DNA of 64,000 nt. It comes from Arcticibacterium luteifluviistationis. GTDB lineage: Bacteria; Bacteroidota; Bacteroidia; Cytophagales; Spirosomataceae. Location of the stretch: assembly GCF_003258705.1 (NCBI RefSeq), contig NZ_CP029480.1:186001-250000 (forward strand). Direction: 5' to 3'. Positions 3,620 through 51,464 of the stretch are shown piece by piece. Numbering within the stretch: position 1 is the first letter of the stretch; each line of letters begins with the position of its first letter. A model generated the notes under the pieces. It was not told where the DNA came from. It searched no databases and saw only the letters and a program-made list of their open reading frames with translations. Position numbers and translations under genes: made by a program.

Positions 3620-5068
<1,449 letters not shown>

Positions 5069-17400: not shown

Positions 17401-20400
17401 CTGTGTATGTACCTGCTTGGTTTACATAAATAGTATCACCGATAGCTCCAGTACTCCATTTTACAGTTCCTGTACATACATCCCCAATCAGCATAGCCGA
17501 ATCAGGTAAGCATAAGCTTGTTTTGTTTGCAAGTATTCTTGGAGGTGATGGATTGCCATTGCTTCCTATCACAATAACACCAGATGGTGTACTTTCTCCA
17601 CAACTGTTTACACATTTCACTGTGTAAGAACCAGCTCCTACTTGAATCATTTCACCCGTTACTCCATTACTCCACACATATTCGAAATCACATCCTATTC
17701 CTTTCAAGGTTGCTTTTTCTTCTCCACAAACGTTTACTCTGTCTGTAGTAATGATTGGTGTGTTTGGAACACTAGTTTTGATGATTTGAACCTTGTTACT
17801 TACTGGGCTATCACCACAAGTTCCTTGACAAACAGCTGAGTAAGTTCCTGCTACTTTGACAAATATTGAAGCTCCTGTAGCTCCCGTTGACCAAAGTATT
17901 GTTTCAGAACAATTCACCGCTGTCAGCGTCACACTTTCGTCTCCACATATTTCAAACTTCACAGTCGAAATAATTGGTGCTTCTGGTGTTTCAACACTGT
18001 TAATTATCAATTCAGAACTCTTATCAGATAAACCACAAGCACTAGTACAAGTAGCAGAATACGTTCCTGCTCCTACCTGAATACTTGCCCCTGTTTCTCC
18101 TGTGCTCCATGTTATCACTCCAGAACAGTTGGTAGCCGTCAAAGTTGCCTTATCAGTACCACAGACTTCTATCTTATCTGAACTAACGTTTGGAGCTGTC
18201 GGTGCTGAACCTTCCCCTATAGAAACCGCAGCACTATTAGGTGATGTTCCACATGCATTACTACATGTCGCTGTATACGTTCCTGCTCCTACTTGAATAG
18301 TAAGGCCAGTCGTTCCAGTACTCCACACTACTGTTCCGTTACAATCCGCAGCAGTAAGTGTCGCTTTATCAGTTCCACAAACCTCTGTTGCATTTGAAGT
18401 AACTGTTGGTGCTACTGGTGTTGTTCCACCGCCTATTGTCACCTCATTACTATTATCAGATGCTCCACAAGCATTGCTACATGTAGCAGTGTAAGTTCCA
18501 ACTCCTACTTGAATTGCAGTACCAGTTGCTCCTGTGCTCCATGTCACTGTACCGTTACAGTTAGTCGCAGTAAGTGTTGCTTTCTCGGCACCACATATTT
18601 GCGTATCATTTGCAGAAATAGTAGGTGCGTTTGGTGTTTCGCCACCACCCACTGTAATCTCATTACTATTAGCCGAAGCTCCACATGAACTACCACATGT
18701 TGCGGTGTAAGTTCCTGTTCCTACTTGGATAGTAGTACCAGTTGCTCCTGTGCTCCATGTCACTGTACCGTTACAGTCAGTTGCAGTCAGTGTTGCTTTA
18801 TCAGTTCCACAAACCTGCGTCTTATCTGATGTAATATTTGGTGCATTTGGTGCATCTCCGCCTCCAATCGTAACCACATTGCTATTTCCAGAAGTTCCAC
18901 ATGAGCTGCTACATGTTGCTGTGTAAGTTCCTGACCCTACCTGAACGGTAGTTCCAGTTGCTCCTGTGCTCCATGTGACAGTTCCACTACAGTTTGTCGC
19001 TGTAAGCGTTGCTTTATCTGTACCACACACTTGCGTTTCATTTGTTGCAATGGTTGGTGCATTCGGCAGATTTCCATTTCCAATAACAATTGGGTTTGAA
19101 TCAGTGCTTTCTCCACAGTCATTTACACATTTAACAGTGTATGTTCCTTTACCTACTGAAATCATATTACCAGTAGCTCCATTGCTCCACACATAAGTGT
19201 AATTACAACCTAGAGCCATTAGACTTGCTTTCTCTTCACCACAAACTGTTGTCTTATCAGACGTCACTACTGGCGTATTAGGTGTTCCTACTTTAGTAAT
19301 ATCAATGATATTACTTCCGTCTGAAATTCCACAATCAGTTACACATTTAGCCCAGTAAGAACCCGCTCCTACACTTATAGTCGCTGTATTAGCTCCCGTG
19401 CTCCAAAGAAGACTACCACCAGTGCAATTGCTTGCGGTAATAGTAACTTTCTCAGTACCACATATCTGAATTTTATCAGAAGTAATTACTGGAGCAGTTG
19501 GTACAGTTCCTTCGTCAATAGTAATTGAATTACTATTTCCTGAAGTACCACATGAGCTGCTACATGTTGCTGTGTAAGTTCCCGATCCTACCTGAATGGT
19601 ACTGCCAGTTGCCCCTGTACTCCATGTCAGCGTTCCTGTACAGTTTGCTGCTGTAAGCGTCGCTTTCTCATCGCCACATATTAACGTCTTGTTTGTCGCA
19701 ATGCTTGGTGCTATTGGTGGCGTTCCTGTAGTGATGGTTACACTATTTGAAGTGCCACTCTCGCCACAGCTATTACTACACGTCGCTGTATATGTTCCTG
19801 CTCCTACACTTATTGTCGCTGTTGTTGCTCCCGTACTCCACTTAAGGCTTCCTGTACAGTTTGTCGCTGTCAAGGTCGCTTTCTCTACTCCACATACTTC
19901 TGTCTTAGTAGAAGTAATACTTGGAGCGTTTGGTACATTACCCTGGTTGATAGTAACTGTATTACTATTTCCTGAGGTACCACATGAGCTGCTACATGTT
20001 GCCGTGTAAGTTCCTGCTCCTACTTCAATCGTAGTGCCACTCGCTCCGGTGCTCCATGTTAACGTGCCATTACAGTTTGCTGCTGTCAACGTTGCTTTCT
20101 CTGCTCCACATACTTCCGTCTTAGTAGACGTTATACTTGGGGCATTTGGTGGTGTACCTGTTGTTATCGTGATAACATTAGATTTAACACTCTCGCCACA
20201 ACTGTTGCTACAGGTCGCTGTGTATGTTCCAGCTCCTACATTTATTGTCGCTGTTACTGCTCCCGTACTCCATTTAAGACTGCCTGTACAGTTTGTTGCT
20301 GTCAAGGTCGCTTTCTCTACTCCACATACTTCTGTCTTAGTAGAAGTAATGCTTGGAGCGTTTGGTACATTTCCTTGACCAATAGTAATCGTGTTACTAT

Positions 20401-22798
20401 TTCCTGAGGTACCACATGAGCTACTACATGTTGCTGTGTAAGTTCCTGCTCCTACTTCAATCGTAGTGCCACTCGCTCCGGTGCTCCATGTTAACGTGCC
20501 ATTACAGTTTGCTGCTGTCAACGTTGCTTTCTCTGCTCCACATACTTCCGTCTTATTAGACGTTATACTTGGGGCATTCGGTGGTGTACCTGTTGTTATT
20601 GTGATAACATTAGATTTAACACTCTCACCACAACTATTGCTACAGGTCGCTGTGTATGTTCCAGCTCCTACATTTATTGTCGCTGTTACTGCTCCCGTAC
20701 TCCATTTAAGACTGCCTGTACAGTTTGTTGCTGTCAAGGTCGCTTTCTCTACTCCACATACTTCTGTCTTAGTAGAAGTAATGCTTGGAGCGTTTGGTAC
20801 ATTTCCTTGACCAATAGTAATCGTGTTACTATTTCCTGAGGTACCACATGAACTGCTACATGTTGCCGTGTAAGTTCCTGCTCCTACTTCAATCGTAGTG
20901 CCACTCGCTCCGGTGCTCCATGTTAACGTGCCATTACAGTTTGCTGCTGTCAACGTTGCTTTCTCTGCTCCACATACTTCCGTCTTAGTAGACGTTATAC
21001 TTGGGGCATTCGGTGGTGTACCTGTTGTTATTGTGATAACATTAGATTTAACACTCTCACCACAACTATTGCTACAGGTCGCTGTGTATGTTCCAGCTCC
21101 TACACTTATAGTCGCTGTTACTGCTCCCGTGCTCCACTTAAGACTTCCTGTACAACCTGTCGCTGTCAACGTCGCTTTCTCTACTCCACATACTTCTGTC
21201 TTAGTAGACGTAATGCTTGGAGCGTTTGGTACATTTCCTTGACCAATAGTAATCGTGTTACTATTTCCTGAGGTGCCACATGAACTACTACATGTTGCCG
21301 TGTAAGTTCCTGCTCCTACTTCAATCGTAGTGCCACTCGCTCCGGTGCTCCATGTTAACGTACCATTACAGTTTGCTGCTGTCAACGTTGCTTTCTCTGC
21401 TCCACATACTTCCGTCTTAGTAGACGTTATACTTGGGGCATTTGGTGGTGTACCTGTTGTTATCGTGATAACATTAGATTTAACACTCTCGCCACAACTG
21501 TTGCTACAGGTCGCTGTGTATGTTCCAGCTCCTACACTTATAGTCGCTGTTGTTGCTCCCGTACTCCATTTAAGACTGCCTGTACAGTTTGTTGCTGTCA
21601 AGGTCGCTTTCTCTACTCCACATACTTCTGTCTTAGTAGACGTAATGCTTGGAGCGTTTGGTACATTTCCTTGACCAATAGTAATCGTGTTACTATTTCC
21701 TGAGGTGCCACATGAGCTACTACATGTTGCCGTGTAAGTTCCTGCTCCTACTTCAATCGTAGTGCCACTCGCTCCGGTGCTCCATGTTAACGTGCCATTA
21801 CAGTTTGCTGCTGTCAACGTTGCTTTCTCTGCTCCACATACTTCCGTCTTAGTAGACGTTATACTTGGGGCATTCGGTGGTGTACCTGTTGTTATTGTGA
21901 TAACATTAGATTTAACACTCTCACCACAACTATTGCTACAGGTCGCTGTGTATGTTCCAGCTCCTACACTTATAGTCGCTGTTACTGCTCCAGTGCTCCA
22001 TTTGAGACTGCCTGTACAATTTGTCGCTGTCAAGGTCGCTTTCTCTACTCCACATACTTCTGTCTTAGTAGAGGTAATGCTTGGAGCGTTTGGTACATTT
22101 CCTTGACCAATAGTAACGGTGTTACTATTTCCTGAGGTACCACATGAGCTGCTACATGTTGCTGTGTAAGTTCCTGCTCCTACTTCAATCGTAGTGCCAC
22201 TCGCTCCGGTGCTCCACGTTAACGTGCCATTACAGTTCGCTGCTGTCAACGTTGCTTTCTCTGCTCCACATACTTCCGTCTTATTAGACGTTATACTTGG
22301 GGCATTCGGTGGTGTACCTGTTGTTATCGTGATAACATTAGATTTAACACTCTCGCCACAACTGTTGCTACACGTCGCTGTGTATGTTCCAGCTCCTACA
22401 TTTATTGTCGCTGTTACTGCTCCCGTACTCCATTTAAGACTGCCTGTACAGTTTGTTGCTGTCAAGGTCGCTTTCTCTACTCCACATACTTCCGTCTTGT
22501 TGGACGTAATACTTGGAGCTGCTGGTGGCGTACCCGTTGTTATCGTTATTGAATTCGATGCTGGACTCACTCCACATAGTGTCTTACACGTTGCCGTGTA
22601 AACACCCGCGGTACTTACAGTGATACTTGCTCCCGTTGCTCCTGTACTCCATGTTACCGTTCCGTTACAGTTCGTCGCTGTTAACGTCGCTGTCTCTCCT
22701 GAACATAACTCGTTATCAGTTGTCGTGATAACTGGCGTCGTTGGTTTTGGTGGCGTTTGTATCGTTATCGTTTCTGTCACCTGACCCACCCTTGCCAC
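14495..22798 (-). CDS. giant repeat surface protein with T9SS type B / gliding C-terminal domain, 5'-truncated
   Basis: Open frame of 2767 codons. Residues ~1-2130 are about 30 tandem Ig-like repeats of ~72 residues, each with a pattern such as EVCGxEKATLTA, then [12 protein letters not shown] and SCG; the cysteines suggest two disulfides per repeat. Then come about three DUF11-type domains ([20 protein letters not shown] and relatives, ~2190-2600). The end is a gliding-motility-associated C-terminal domain ([33 protein letters not shown]), the signal for type IX secretion. There is no signal peptide: the first codon is a GTG just after a TAG stop, and the first ~8 residues (MARVGQVT) are encoded by a group II intron fragment. 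The true 5' end, with signal peptide, is missing, so this is probably a non-secreted remnant or pseudogene, or a junction error. Confidence 0.9.
19900..22540 (-). repeat. 432-bp near-identical tandem repeats inside the giant gene
   Basis: About six consecutive 432-bp units, each encoding two alternating Ig-like repeats ([10 protein letters not shown] type then [10 protein letters not shown] type). Landmark sequences recur at 20034, 20466, 20898, 21330, 21762 and 22194, exactly 432 bp apart. The units differ by only a few bases, while the repeats to the 3' side of the gene (14.9-19.8 kb) are much more diverged. This indicates recent expansion or gene conversion at the 5' side. Confidence 0.9.
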
Positions 22799-47672: not shown

Positions 47673-48395
47673 TTATAAAGACGTTATTAAATAATGGGCT
47701 AATATTCCCAAAAGTATGGTAGGAGTGATGCTCATTAATGTACCTATAAGCACATATTCCATTTGTTTTGTTTCGGTGTCTTTAAACCTTAAAATAGCCT
47801 TTGTAGCTATCAAGAAGCCCATTGCCGAAAACTGATTGGTCAATATGAAAGTCAAAATAAGCACCCTTTCAAACACACCAATCCATAATCCAGCTTTTTG
47901 TAAAGATTCCTGTCTGTCTGGCTCTAATTGAGAACGCCATCTGTCTGTGAAAATATTTATAACCACACTTAATGGAAAAGTGATGACGCCATAGGCAAAA
48001 ACAAGAATCCATGTTTGTGGCGTATCTACCAGCCAAATAGTAGATTCTTTTAGCCATTGCCAACCATCAATTAAACATAACCAGGTTATGAGAAGAATTA
48101 AGGTATGCAATGCTTGGTCAATAATAAATAAGACAAACCTGTTAATCTTGAGGTAGATTTTACCAAGGTCTATCAAGTAGTGCGTTACGCCTATAAATAG
48201 TGCTGCCCAAAAGCTTCCAGAAAACAGAAAAGCAGCCAAGAAAGTAATTAGAATATGTAAATAGAGTTTTTTAGAGCGTATCTTATTAACTTCTTTGTCT
48301 TTACTCCATGAGCTGAACTGCAAGAAATAGTCAGACACCATGTGGGCTGTAAACAGTTTTAGCAATAGACTTATTTCTGAATTCGTGAGACTCAT
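47673..48395 (-). CDS. DUF3307 membrane protein
   Basis: 240 residues with about six membrane helices. It starts with LKLFTAHMVSDYFLQFSSWS, typical of DUF3307, and has FIGVTHYLIDLGKIYLKI. It overlaps satD by 4 bp, a pairing found widely in Bacteroidota. Its role is unknown. The last 44 codons occur again as a fragment at 42875-43008. Confidence 0.9.
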   Translation of the reverse strand: MSLTNSEISLLLKLFTAHMVSDYFLQFSSWSKDKEVNKIRSKKLYLHILITFLAAFLFSGSFWAALFIGVTHYLIDLGKIYLKINRFVLFIIDQALHTLILLITWLCLIDGWQWLKESTIWLVDTPQTWILVFAYGVITFPLSVVINIFTDRWRSQLEPDRQESLQKAGLWIGVFERVLILTFILTNQFSAMGFLIATKAILRFKDTETKQMEYVLIGTLMSITPTILLGILAHYLITSL

Positions 48396-48979
48396 AATGT
48401 ATGATTAAAATGGCTTACAATATTTTCAATCAAATTCCAGCCAGAGTTTTTGATACGTCGGTTTACGGAGGATTGGCGAATACCTATTTCTTCAGCTATT
48501 TCTTGCTGCGTATAATCAAGTAATAGCCAGTAATGCACCTCCATTTGGTTTAGGGTATTGGTCTTTTCCAGATAGTCTAGAGTGGCAGCATGTAGCTTCC
48601 ATTCCGCATTTTTGGTATCATCAGATGTATGAATGCTAATGATTGTCTTTTCCTCTTTCATAGCATCTAAACCTTGTCCAGATAGCCAAAAAGCAGGCCC
48701 ATCGGAATTGGATAGCCTTTCTTCTAAAATATTGACTTCTCCTATACCAATAGATATTCTGACAGAAAAACCAGTTTTCAGTTTTAAAAGGTACTTGATT
48801 TTTAAAGCCTCAGTGAGTCCATCGGTTTCTAACATTACTTGAAAAGAGTCGCCACGTATAAAGAAATCATATTGCCCTTTGGAGCTTTGGGCAAGGCTTT
48901 CCAGAATTGCGGCTATAGCCTTCCTTTCAGCATTGCTGAGCTTTGTAGAGTCTATAATGTCGCCTGTTAAAACCTGCAT
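48392..48979 (-). CDS. SatD-family protein with C-terminal helix-turn-helix
   Basis: 195 residues. The start MQVLTGDIIDSTKLSNAERK and SVRISIGIGEVN fit the SatD family. The C-terminus carries a sigma-70-region-4-like helix-turn-helix: LLDYTQQEIAEEIGIRQSSV followed by NRRIKNSGW. It is likely to bind DNA, and the four tandem 29-bp repeats directly upstream (48990-49105) are the natural candidates for its operator. First gene of the satD-DUF3307 operon. Confidence 0.85.
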   Translation of the reverse strand: MQVLTGDIIDSTKLSNAERKAIAAILESLAQSSKGQYDFFIRGDSFQVMLETDGLTEALKIKYLLKLKTGFSVRISIGIGEVNILEERLSNSDGPAFWLSGQGLDAMKEEKTIISIHTSDDTKNAEWKLHAATLDYLEKTNTLNQMEVHYWLLLDYTQQEIAEEIGIRQSSVNRRIKNSGWNLIENIVSHFNHTL

Positions 48980-48989
48980 TTATTTAAAT

Positions 48990-49105
48990 TATGTACAAAT
49001 ATATACATAATTATCAATTATGCATTCCTATATGCATATTTATAGTTTATGCACTCTCATATGCATATTTTAAATTTATACAATTGAAAGTGCATAATTG
49101 CCATA
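48990..49105. repeat. four 29-bp tandem repeats upstream of satD (putative operator array)
   Basis: Units begin at 48990, 49019, 49048 and 49077, exactly 29 bp apart. The common pattern is TATGYA-N6-ATATGCATA-TTT; units 2 and 3 carry the full palindrome atatgcatat, units 1 and 4 are more diverged. The repeats fill the whole space between the ctlX stop and the satD start. No spacers of unique sequence exist, so this is not a CRISPR. Confidence 0.85.
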
Positions 49106-49107
49106 TA

Positions 49108-50037
49108 TTACGCTTTAAGGGGTAAGTGAATTTCCGCCAACATACACCTCGCCGAGCCACCACCAAGGGTTTCAATCAAACCTAATTCAGCTCTTAAAAT
49201 AAAAGTCCTTTCTTCTAAAAATGCAATTTGACTCTTATTTAAACTTTGATACGCTCTTTCAGACATTACCAAAATACGTTCTCCGTCTATGTTTTCCACC
49301 TGCAGCATGTTACCTGCAAATTCGTTCATTTGTGCTAGGCTGATTTCCAAAGGTTCTTTTCCACTCTCCTTGAGCCTGTTTAGCACCTGATTTCGCTGTG
49401 TAATATCTCTTATGCTTTCAGCACAAATTAAAGAGAAATCGGCTCCTATATTCATCATAACATTGGTATGGTAAATAGAAACCCCAGCTTCATCAAGTGC
49501 ATCAAAAGTCACTATTTCATAGTCCGGAAAATGAGAAGCCCAATCCTCAATTACACTTTCATGCGTTCTGCTGGAAAGGCAAGCATAGGCTACTTTTTTC
49601 GACCTATCTAAAACCAAGCTTCCTGTGCCTTCTAAGTAATGTTTATTATTTTCATGCTGCTCTAGGTGGTGAATACTTTCGATATTGAAATTACTTTCAA
49701 GTAAATTAAGAAGATTTGTGCTCCGCTCAGCTCTCCTGTTTCTAGCTTCCATAGGATAGAGGAACACCCTGCCATCTGCATGAAAAGAGACCCAATTATT
49801 CGGAAAAATACTGTCTGGGGTACACGGTTCTGGCGTGTCTTCAATAACCGTGATATTGACTTTAGCCTTTCTTAGCTTTGCTACAAATTCATCAAAGTGC
49901 TTTAAAGCATCTTCTTGCGGATTTTCATTTGGCTCTGCCTCATGCATAAATGCATTACTCTCCGCTGTTTGCTCGTTAAAACCGAAGCAAACAGGACGCA
50001 CCATCATTAGGTGAGAACAACATTGTTTTTCCATCAA
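49108..50037 (-). CDS. ctlX: citrulline-utilisation hydrolase CtlX-like protein
   Basis: 309 residues, guanidino-group-modifying (pentein) fold. Motifs: HLMMVRPVCFGFNEQTA, DSIFPNNWVSFHADGRVFLY, EGTGSLVLDR and the C-terminal nucleophile region LGGGSARCMLAEIH. CtlX acts on citrulline in Bacteroidota without ornithine-carbamoyl routes. The ATG overlaps the stop of the arginine deiminase gene by 4 bp; the pair would turn arginine into citrulline and then ornithine. Confidence 0.88.
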   Translation of the reverse strand: MMEKQCCSHLMMVRPVCFGFNEQTAESNAFMHEAEPNENPQEDALKHFDEFVAKLRKAKVNITVIEDTPEPCTPDSIFPNNWVSFHADGRVFLYPMEARNRRAERSTNLLNLLESNFNIESIHHLEQHENNKHYLEGTGSLVLDRSKKVAYACLSSRTHESVIEDWASHFPDYEIVTFDALDEAGVSIYHTNVMMNIGADFSLICAESIRDITQRNQVLNRLKESGKEPLEISLAQMNEFAGNMLQVENIDGERILVMSERAYQSLNKSQIAFLEERTFILRAELGLIETLGGGSARCMLAEIHLPLKA

Positions 50038-51464
50038 ACGGAAGCTCTAAGAATTGGTAAACTCATACAATGAGACCCACCTCTGGCTCTTGAAAGTTCT
50101 GCAGAAGGCAAAAGAATAATGGTGTTTTCTAATGTTTCTGGAGATTTAATATTCTTCTCAAAGTCCAATAATAGGTCTTTGACATTGACCACCTCAAAAC
50201 CTGCATTTTCAAAAGCTTCCGAAGTCTTATTATTTCTATCGTAACCTACTGCTACACCTTCTTTTAATACTAGCAAATTACAAGAATCAGTCCATTGTTC
50301 ACGAGCTCCATAGGGGAATACATTGTTTCCAGAATAAACAAATTTGACAGGTTCTTTACATTTTAGGTCAACCTCCGAGATATCGATTAGTAAGTCTTCT
50401 AAGTTTTCAAATGACCTTGACTTCTCTAGGCCATTTTCCACATAAAACTGCTTAATCATCAGTTCTTCAGCCTTATTTCTTTGACCCAACTCTTCCCAAA
50501 TCAAATCTCTTTTATGTTTTTCGGCAGCACGGCCAATAGAAGCCAATAACACCCACACATTCTTTTTGATTTGTGTAAAAACGGTGTCAATGTGCATATA
50601 ATCACGTTTGGCAGGTATTTTCACCAAAGTCACTTTAGTCAAAACTTTTTTATCAAAAAGCTTACGCATGACCTGTCTGGCAGCTTCTACACTTGTTCGC
50701 TCACTAATTCCTATTAATAAGTGGTTTGGTGCCACCATCATCACATCGCCACCTTCTAGCGTCTCTTCTTTGTCACCTTGCTCATTTTCTGGCATCAGAA
50801 ACTGCTCATCATTTTCTTCTATTTCAACTAGCTTGCTTCTTAAACTTTCAAAAATGGCATGATTAAAGAAAACATATTTAGCTAGTAGAGACTCTCTTCG
50901 CCTTGCCAGTTTTGCTGGTTTATTGAGTAAGAAGTGATCATTAATCATAATGCCAATGTCTCTCGTGAAAATAAGGTTAGGAATAGGGGAGAAGTACATG
51001 TCTCCTGCACTTGTCATTCCAGTTATTAGAAGTCGGGTCAATTCCAAATCAGAGAAGGTAAGAAATTGTTCCATCTCTTTATAAGAGCACTCTTCTATGG
51101 CAGAAACTGCCGCAATAAGCTGATTTTTGATGGCAGTATTTGTTAAAACCTCTTTTAAGAGTACTTCAAACTCTATGACTTTGTCAGATTGAAAATAAGC
51201 CTTGTGTCCTGGAATAAAGAAACCTCTGTCGGCAGCTCCATCTATTTTATGGAGCTTCCCTTTAATCTTATCTGTGTCTAAGAAGTAGAGTAAGAGTTTT
51301 ACATAATAGTCGTATTCTTCTTTACGCATTGTTTCTAAATGTACAATGTCCTCAAAAAGCCAATCTTGAGCTTTAGATGGTACGACCTTGCCCAAACCGC
51401 TGTCTGGGCTATGTATAATGAGTTTTTGTAAGGTGGCTACCTCACTATTTACTTGAAAATCCAT
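50034..51464 (-). CDS. arginine deiminase family protein
   Basis: 476 residues. Pentein motifs: HSPDSGLGKVVPSKAQDWLF near the start, EGGDVMMVAPNHLLIGISER, MHIDTVFTQI (catalytic His) and RGGSHCMSLPI with the nucleophile Cys. Arginine deiminases hydrolyse arginine to citrulline and ammonia. It is longer than classic ArcA (about 410 residues) because of insertions near residues 190-280 and 330-370. First gene of a two-gene operon with ctlX. Confidence 0.88.
   Translation of the reverse strand: MDFQVNSEVATLQKLIIHSPDSGLGKVVPSKAQDWLFEDIVHLETMRKEEYDYYVKLLLYFLDTDKIKGKLHKIDGAADRGFFIPGHKAYFQSDKVIEFEVLLKEVLTNTAIKNQLIAAVSAIEECSYKEMEQFLTFSDLELTRLLITGMTSAGDMYFSPIPNLIFTRDIGIMINDHFLLNKPAKLARRRESLLAKYVFFNHAIFESLRSKLVEIEENDEQFLMPENEQGDKEETLEGGDVMMVAPNHLLIGISERTSVEAARQVMRKLFDKKVLTKVTLVKIPAKRDYMHIDTVFTQIKKNVWVLLASIGRAAEKHKRDLIWEELGQRNKAEELMIKQFYVENGLEKSRSFENLEDLLIDISEVDLKCKEPVKFVYSGNNVFPYGAREQWTDSCNLLVLKEGVAVGYDRNNKTSEAFENAGFEVVNVKDLLLDFEKNIKSPETLENTIILLPSAELSRARGGSHCMSLPILRASV

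Follow-up and report, generated by a model that had tools for sequence, protein, structure and literature searches.

Four palindromes that precede the satD–DUF3307 operon of Arcticibacterium luteifluviistationis very probably form an operator array, to which SatD would bind to repress its own operon. They are located in a 64,000-nt stretch of contig NZ_CP029480.1, referred to here as the window.

The array in the satD promoter

Direct reading of the 128-bp gap between ctlX and satD identified four 22-bp palindromes with the consensus TTATGCA-N8-TGCATAA, each with one or two mismatches to it, spaced by exactly 29 bp and separated from their neighbours by 7 bp (Table 1). The array spans positions 48989 to 49097, and does not reach 49105 as proposed in the first-pass annotation, which had been made from the sequence. 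That annotation correctly described four units with exact 29-bp spacing, also apparent from TATG at 48990, 49019 and 49048 and TATA at 49077; the core that it had proposed, atatgcatat, covers no more than the right arm in two of the units (2 and 3), the true unit being the 22-bp palindrome. The array was also detected by TRF (48985-49076, period 29, score 93) and, in a search over a range of periods and unit lengths, it scored 72.2, as compared with a maximum of 37.9 over 100 dinucleotide-preserving shuffles. Within the 5.4-Mb genome, pairs of TTATGCA half-sites 29 bp apart occur with zero mismatches only in the satD array; allowing one mismatch, we found the two adjoining pairs of this array and two other places.

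Table 1. Features of the satD promoter and operon (positions in the window).
Feature	Position	Strand	Remarks
Operator site 1 (closest to satD), TTATGTATATATTTGTACATAA	48989..49010	-	22-bp palindrome, in register with sites 2-4
Operator site 2, ATATGCATATAGGAATGCATAA	49018..49039	-	
Operator site 3, ATATGCATATGAGAGTGCATAA	49047..49068	-	
Operator site 4, TTATGCACTTTCAATTGTATAA	49076..49097	-	
Match to TAnnTTTG (presumed Bacteroidota -7 element), TATATTTG	48996..49003	-	Lies in site 1; 17 nt separate it from the start codon of satD
satD	48392..48979	-	PF16264; N-terminal class III cyclase-like domain and C-terminal helix-turn-helix
DUF3307 membrane protein gene	47673..48395	-	PF11750; start overlaps the satD stop; presumed co-regulated partner

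Upstream of satD lies ctlX (citrulline utilization hydrolase; minus strand, ending at 49108), with an arginine deiminase-like gene upstream (window 49108-51464), and ctlX likewise directly precedes satD in several relatives. Elsewhere in the window, positions 18233-22543 contain large tandem repeats on a coding scale, with units of 216 and 432 bp, in up to seven copies with 93% matches.

Conservation of the array and its relation to the SatD recognition helix

Relatives of SatD were collected by whole-genome searches in the family, order and phylum, and the DNA around 191 satD loci, all with a clear SatD ORF, was retrieved. DUF3307 is encoded directly downstream of satD and on the same strand in 181 of these loci. 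Removal of similar upstream regions left 168 non-redundant satD promoters from Bacteroidota, in which the dominant self-similarity lag within the 200 bp upstream was 29 (z 36.6), followed by 28, 58 and 56. Within intervals of 160 bp, the z value for lag 29 was 41 at the promoter, whereas three control regions from these loci gave -2.5, -3.4 and 4.3, and palindromes with 7-bp arms were most strongly enriched (4.1-fold) at a total length of 22. The array score exceeded the 95th percentile of shuffles in 127 promoters, all but one of them (126/127) with a period of 28 or 29 and usually with three (83) or four (39) sites; the other 41 of the 168 fell below this threshold. Thus, position, unit length and period are conserved across satD promoters, whereas the sequence of the sites is not. 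The first-pass annotation had suggested looking for the same motif upstream of satD–DUF3307 in other Bacteroidota: the array is indeed there, but usually with a different half-site sequence.

Arrays were also found outside Bacteroidota, including gammaproteobacteria and haloarchaea, in each case with a score reached by at most 1 of 100 shuffles. Plasmids encoding satD and DUF3307 in Vibrio lentus (three sites, TTAGCC-N6-GGCTAA) and Salinivibrio (a weak array) have a period of 28, and those of two haloarchaea (TTCGCC-N6-GGCGAA) a period of 29. Two unannotated Pseudoalteromonas records contain satD with GTAACC sites and period 28, and one Sphingomonas plasmid has satD with three sites of period 28 and no DUF3307 annotated alongside. 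The same shuffle-scored search revealed no array in the satD promoters of Sphingomonas insulae and of a Segatella plasmid. The period-28/29 array can serve as a simple genomic marker of the satD–DUF3307 system from Bacteroidota to haloarchaea. In the two haloarchaeal plasmids, two TTCG-type pairs, each about 29 bp apart, sit upstream of satD on either side of a gap, as if flanking an archaeal promoter. The gene adjoining satD–DUF3307 in the plasmid of S. insulae bears the annotation "Pycsar system effector family protein".

The strong AT-richness of the gap between ctlX and satD might suggest a chance or low-complexity repeat, but such an origin is scarcely conceivable: none of the 100 shuffles reached the score of the array, its period is conserved across phyla, and controls at other regions, gaps and half-sites were empty or nearly so. 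These controls already refute it.

The spelling of the sites varies with the type of SatD. Most A-type proteins, the type found in the window, are associated with WTAT-nnn-N8-nnn-ATAW sites, those with an IWKR-type helix-turn-helix (HTH) with TTnTTTCA-N7-TGAAAnAA, and those with a YKN-type HTH with TTAAC or TCAAC. A dyad of even length was preferred in 37 of 42 period-28 promoters and in 52 of 77 period-29 promoters, counts in which B-type proteins are still pooled with A and add odd-length cases. The preference for an even dyad at both periods suggests a dimer site formed by the 22-bp palindrome, with the variation lying in the gap of 6 or 7 bp.

The recognition helix follows the pattern Q-x-x-V-[NS]-X-R, residue X being R174 in the SatD of the window. 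We tallied X against the inner triplet of the half-site in 72 non-redundant A-type arrays. The triplet was GCA in 3 of 5 arrays with X = R, AAG in 20/26 with Q, AAC in 3/3 with K and CGn in 4/4 with D; E was accompanied by CGG, CTG or CGT (16/16), and G by CGT (5/6). Residue Q was paired with several triplets. As a control for common descent, pairs of SatD were stratified by their identity outside the HTH: at 25–30% scaffold identity, the probability of sharing the triplet was 0.48 when X was equal and 0.016 when it differed, and the contrast had the same direction in every identity stratum. Among 25 representatives with less than 50% scaffold identity, the R174 column showed the highest covariation with the triplet of all 182 protein columns. 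With stricter removal of redundancy it dropped to rank 7 (14 representatives) and 12 (7 representatives), so that the residue-level code rests mostly on moderately related proteins. The stratified pairs and the low-identity representatives took the place of a column-wise ranking by MI with no redundancy control, in which phylogeny was the dominant influence. Genomes with two satD genes contain two different arrays, which are mostly both significant and suited to the HTH type of the respective SatD. From these comparisons, the inner three bases of the half-site are probably read in part by residue 174, regulator and operator having changed together. That the half-site tracks the SatD recognition helix points to SatD itself as the binder, as the first-pass annotation had suspected.

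We considered whether the palindromes could instead act as RNA, as hairpins of a cis-acting element in the satD leader. A hairpin with a 7-bp stem and an 8-nt loop is conceivable for each site, and some of the phage copies described below lie among tRNA genes. However, the -7-like element of the window is within site 1, which would place sites 2-4 upstream of the transcript. In addition, the 28–29 bp phase is preserved despite variation in loops and gaps, and a DNA-recognition helix covaries with the arms, making an RNA element highly improbable.

We also compared the positions of arrays in complete genomes with the SatD coordinates from the whole-genome searches. Perfect two-site TATAAG arrays were present in 38 of 222 family genomes, all directly upstream of satD, and this restriction to satD indicates that SatD very probably binds its array and regulates its own operon with DUF3307. 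TATCGT arrays occurred in 2 of 380 order genomes, at satD in both, with one extra copy in a prophage of one of them. We found no wider SatD regulon in the genome of A. luteifluviistationis, in five related genomes or in family- and order-wide pattern searches, the only array outside satD promoters in these cellular scans being that in one prophage of a relative. This prophage, which inspection of its proteins showed to be Mu-like, has a pair of perfect SatD sites at a distance of 29 bp (L202:1977-2025, equal to G005:C26:604176-604224) just upstream of an operon of small genes, and their specificity matches that of the host satD (L004). The same relative contains a single perfect TATCGT palindrome (L203:1552-1571; G005:C20:134151), about 20 bp upstream of an ORF for a LytS-type histidine kinase, which may be due to chance.

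The genome encodes many HTH proteins, any of which might bind the array and leave SatD as merely a regulated gene. We consider this quite unlikely, given that a change of half-site from one lineage to another goes with a change in the SatD recognition helix and that paralogous satD genes of one genome have different arrays. Nor would an unlinked regulator explain that family genomes contain no arrays elsewhere.

Proposed action of SatD and its partner

The SatD of the window belongs to PF16264 (E 6e-11; 42.9 bits versus a curated cut-off of 29), as do 117 of 124 aligned relatives at E 0.01. Its AlphaFold2 model (mean pLDDT 96.9) places the HTH at residues 158-179, with the recognition helix at approximately 169-179 including the specificity-linked R174. 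Residues 1-120 resemble GTP cyclohydrolase III (2qv6; Z 11.7, with an rmsd of 2.1 across 109 residues) and the adenylyl cyclases of class III (Z about 10), with fold matches overall at Z 9-12 and Foldseek E values of 7e-5 to 1e-3 for both groups. The SatD profile retrieves the cyclase Ma1120, and D7 and D44 align with its metal aspartates; in class III cyclases, the corresponding aspartates bind metal. Among the 124 SatDs, D44 is invariant and D7 nearly so. Since the fold is that of cyclases and GTP cyclohydrolase III and both aspartates align, a nucleotide is the likely signal or ligand, which would alter SatD binding. SatD differs from these enzymes in its C-terminal HTH, and the overall sequence identity is about 20%.

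The model of DUF3307 (AF2, pLDDT 94.4) is an all-helical membrane protein, for which a fold search yielded no significant match among solved structures. Its near-invariant histidine, aspartate and glutamine residues (H18, D22, Q26, H47, H72, D76, D93, Q94 and H97) hint at a membrane metal site. Phages carry a family related to DUF3307, PHROG 2470. Comparison with PADLOC produced only weak, HTH-level matches for SatD (E > 1e-3) and none for DUF3307, and neither PADLOC nor PHROGs returned a defence assignment for SatD.

We propose that the 22-bp palindromes are each occupied by a dimer of SatD by way of its C-terminal HTH. Neighbouring dimers, 28–29 bp or about 2.7 helical turns apart, would wind round the DNA, and their binding may be cooperative. 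The first-pass annotation had reasoned that a period of 29 bp is not a whole number of turns; the arithmetic holds (29/10.5 = 2.76 turns), but the period is 28 bp in certain lineages, so that what is conserved is the unit and not the phase. Bound at the site closest to the gene, SatD would cover the probable -7 element and most likely repress satD–DUF3307, and a nucleotide on its N-terminal domain would probably change binding, which is the weakest step of the proposal.

Repression is suggested by the overlap of the site with the -7 box and by satD of Streptococcus pyogenes, an accessory gene present in 178 of 249 genomes and yet essential by Tn-seq in all strains tested (PMC11323703). Such a pattern is to be expected if SatD acts as a repressor and its loss sets free a partner that does harm. 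SatD could also bind the array and activate the operon, or switch in both directions according to its ligand. This is a less likely option. In its favour, three or four sites extend 60–110 bp upstream, the cyclase-fold sensor domain suggests a ligand switch, and only about half of the promoters with an array contain the strict -7 motif, which leaves room for activation. Specifically, TAnnTTTG occurs in 62 of the 127 array promoters, versus 12.7 ± 3.0 in shuffles, with 53 occurrences falling within the array, for the most part in the final or penultimate site. Against activation, in most loci the last site either overlaps the -7 element or is a few bases (median 8 bp) away from the start codon, and the essentiality of the accessory S. 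pyogenes gene fits a repressor better. An operator over the -7 element or beside the start codon is typical of repression.

The papers retrieved on the SatD family and the sat operon of S. mutans treat SatD as an acid-tolerance gene of unknown biochemistry. Our literature search, in agreement with the first-pass annotation, which knew of no operator for SatD proteins, retrieved no description of DNA binding, an operator or a cyclase-like fold for SatD. Self-repressing regulators, such as lambda CI/Cro and antitoxins, have several spaced palindromes across the promoter of their own operon, and the sequence specificity of autoregulated HTH repressors diversifies between relatives. The satD array resembles lambda CI/Cro-type operators in both respects, and differs from them in keeping a strict 28–29 bp period with 3-5 units from Bacteroidota to haloarchaea, in the nucleotide-cyclase fold of the SatD sensor domain and in having as a partner a membrane protein with no assigned function. 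Pycsar systems consist of the PycC cyclase and a transmembrane effector. Similarly, SatD is a cyclase-fold protein encoded beside a membrane protein, and phages appear to interact with the system; unlike in Pycsar, SatD carries a DNA-binding domain and has an operator array.

Arrays carried by phages

Prompted by the array in the prophage of a relative, we scanned viral contigs (IMG/VR) for two exact adjacent sites, obtaining 25 matches for TATCGT, 67 for TATAAG, 21 for TATCGG, one for TATGCA and five for TATAAC. In these contigs, neither TATAAG with a gap 4 bp longer nor the unrelated half-site TATGCT gave any match, and other gaps within the extracted array-bearing viral DNA gave 0 or 1. B-type viral matches were left out of the counts, having only 20 specified bases and several being near-identical, with the exception of an array on a contig that also carries a TATAAG array. 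The 114 arrays from the TATCGT, TATAAG, TATCGG and TATGCA scans represent 56 unrelated contexts, 53 of them with exactly two sites. TATAAG arrays have a period of 29 in 28 of the 30 contexts from phages and in 32 of the 33 cellular promoters, and TATCGG arrays a period of 28 in 14/20 and 10/12, respectively; the phage periods thus match the cellular ones by half-site.

The genes near viral arrays include those for terminase, portal, major head protein and DNA polymerase, indicating that the carriers are phages. BLAST of the array-bearing segments against named phages returned only tRNA or short matches. SatD and DUF3307 were absent from the array-bearing viral loci, and no SatD was found in 50 whole viral records carrying arrays, which may be fragments, or by tblastn in 50,697 phage records. 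Only one representative phage array is inside an ORF or tRNA. Of 51 cases, 12 had convergent flanking genes (p 4e-4 versus other gaps) and 9 had divergent ones (p 1.0), indicating that phage arrays do not favour promoters, and a tRNA gene was within 200 bp of 14 of the 56. Arrays without satD (L207-L319 and L320-L324) often lie between tRNA genes or convergent genes, examples being L214:7108-7155, L248:1248-1295 and 4921-4969, and L256:7516-7610.

These facts are best accommodated by a decoy function, which is the leading, if unproven, explanation: phages may carry two-site copies of the operator, short, with the spelling and period of the host and away from promoters, that sequester SatD while the cell is being infected. 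We judge the chances of this to be about even. The main alternative is that phages use the host SatD as a regulator. We know of no natural example of phage DNA decoys against a host regulator, and our literature search found no natural phage DNA decoy for a regulator. Should the phage sites prove to be decoys, they would represent a new kind of finding. If this reading is true, satD–DUF3307 would be a phage-relevant system, probably of defence or exclusion, and the spelling of its operators a record of an arms race.

As part of the decoy reading, phages that meet hosts with different SatDs would carry two specificities side by side. Two specificities occur together in five phage cases: AAG and CGG, with one mismatch, in L246; AAG and CGG in L248; adjacent AAG and TAC in L256; adjacent AAC and AAG in L321/L322; and, on contig 3300042379_000363, AAG in L243 and TTTCA in L349.
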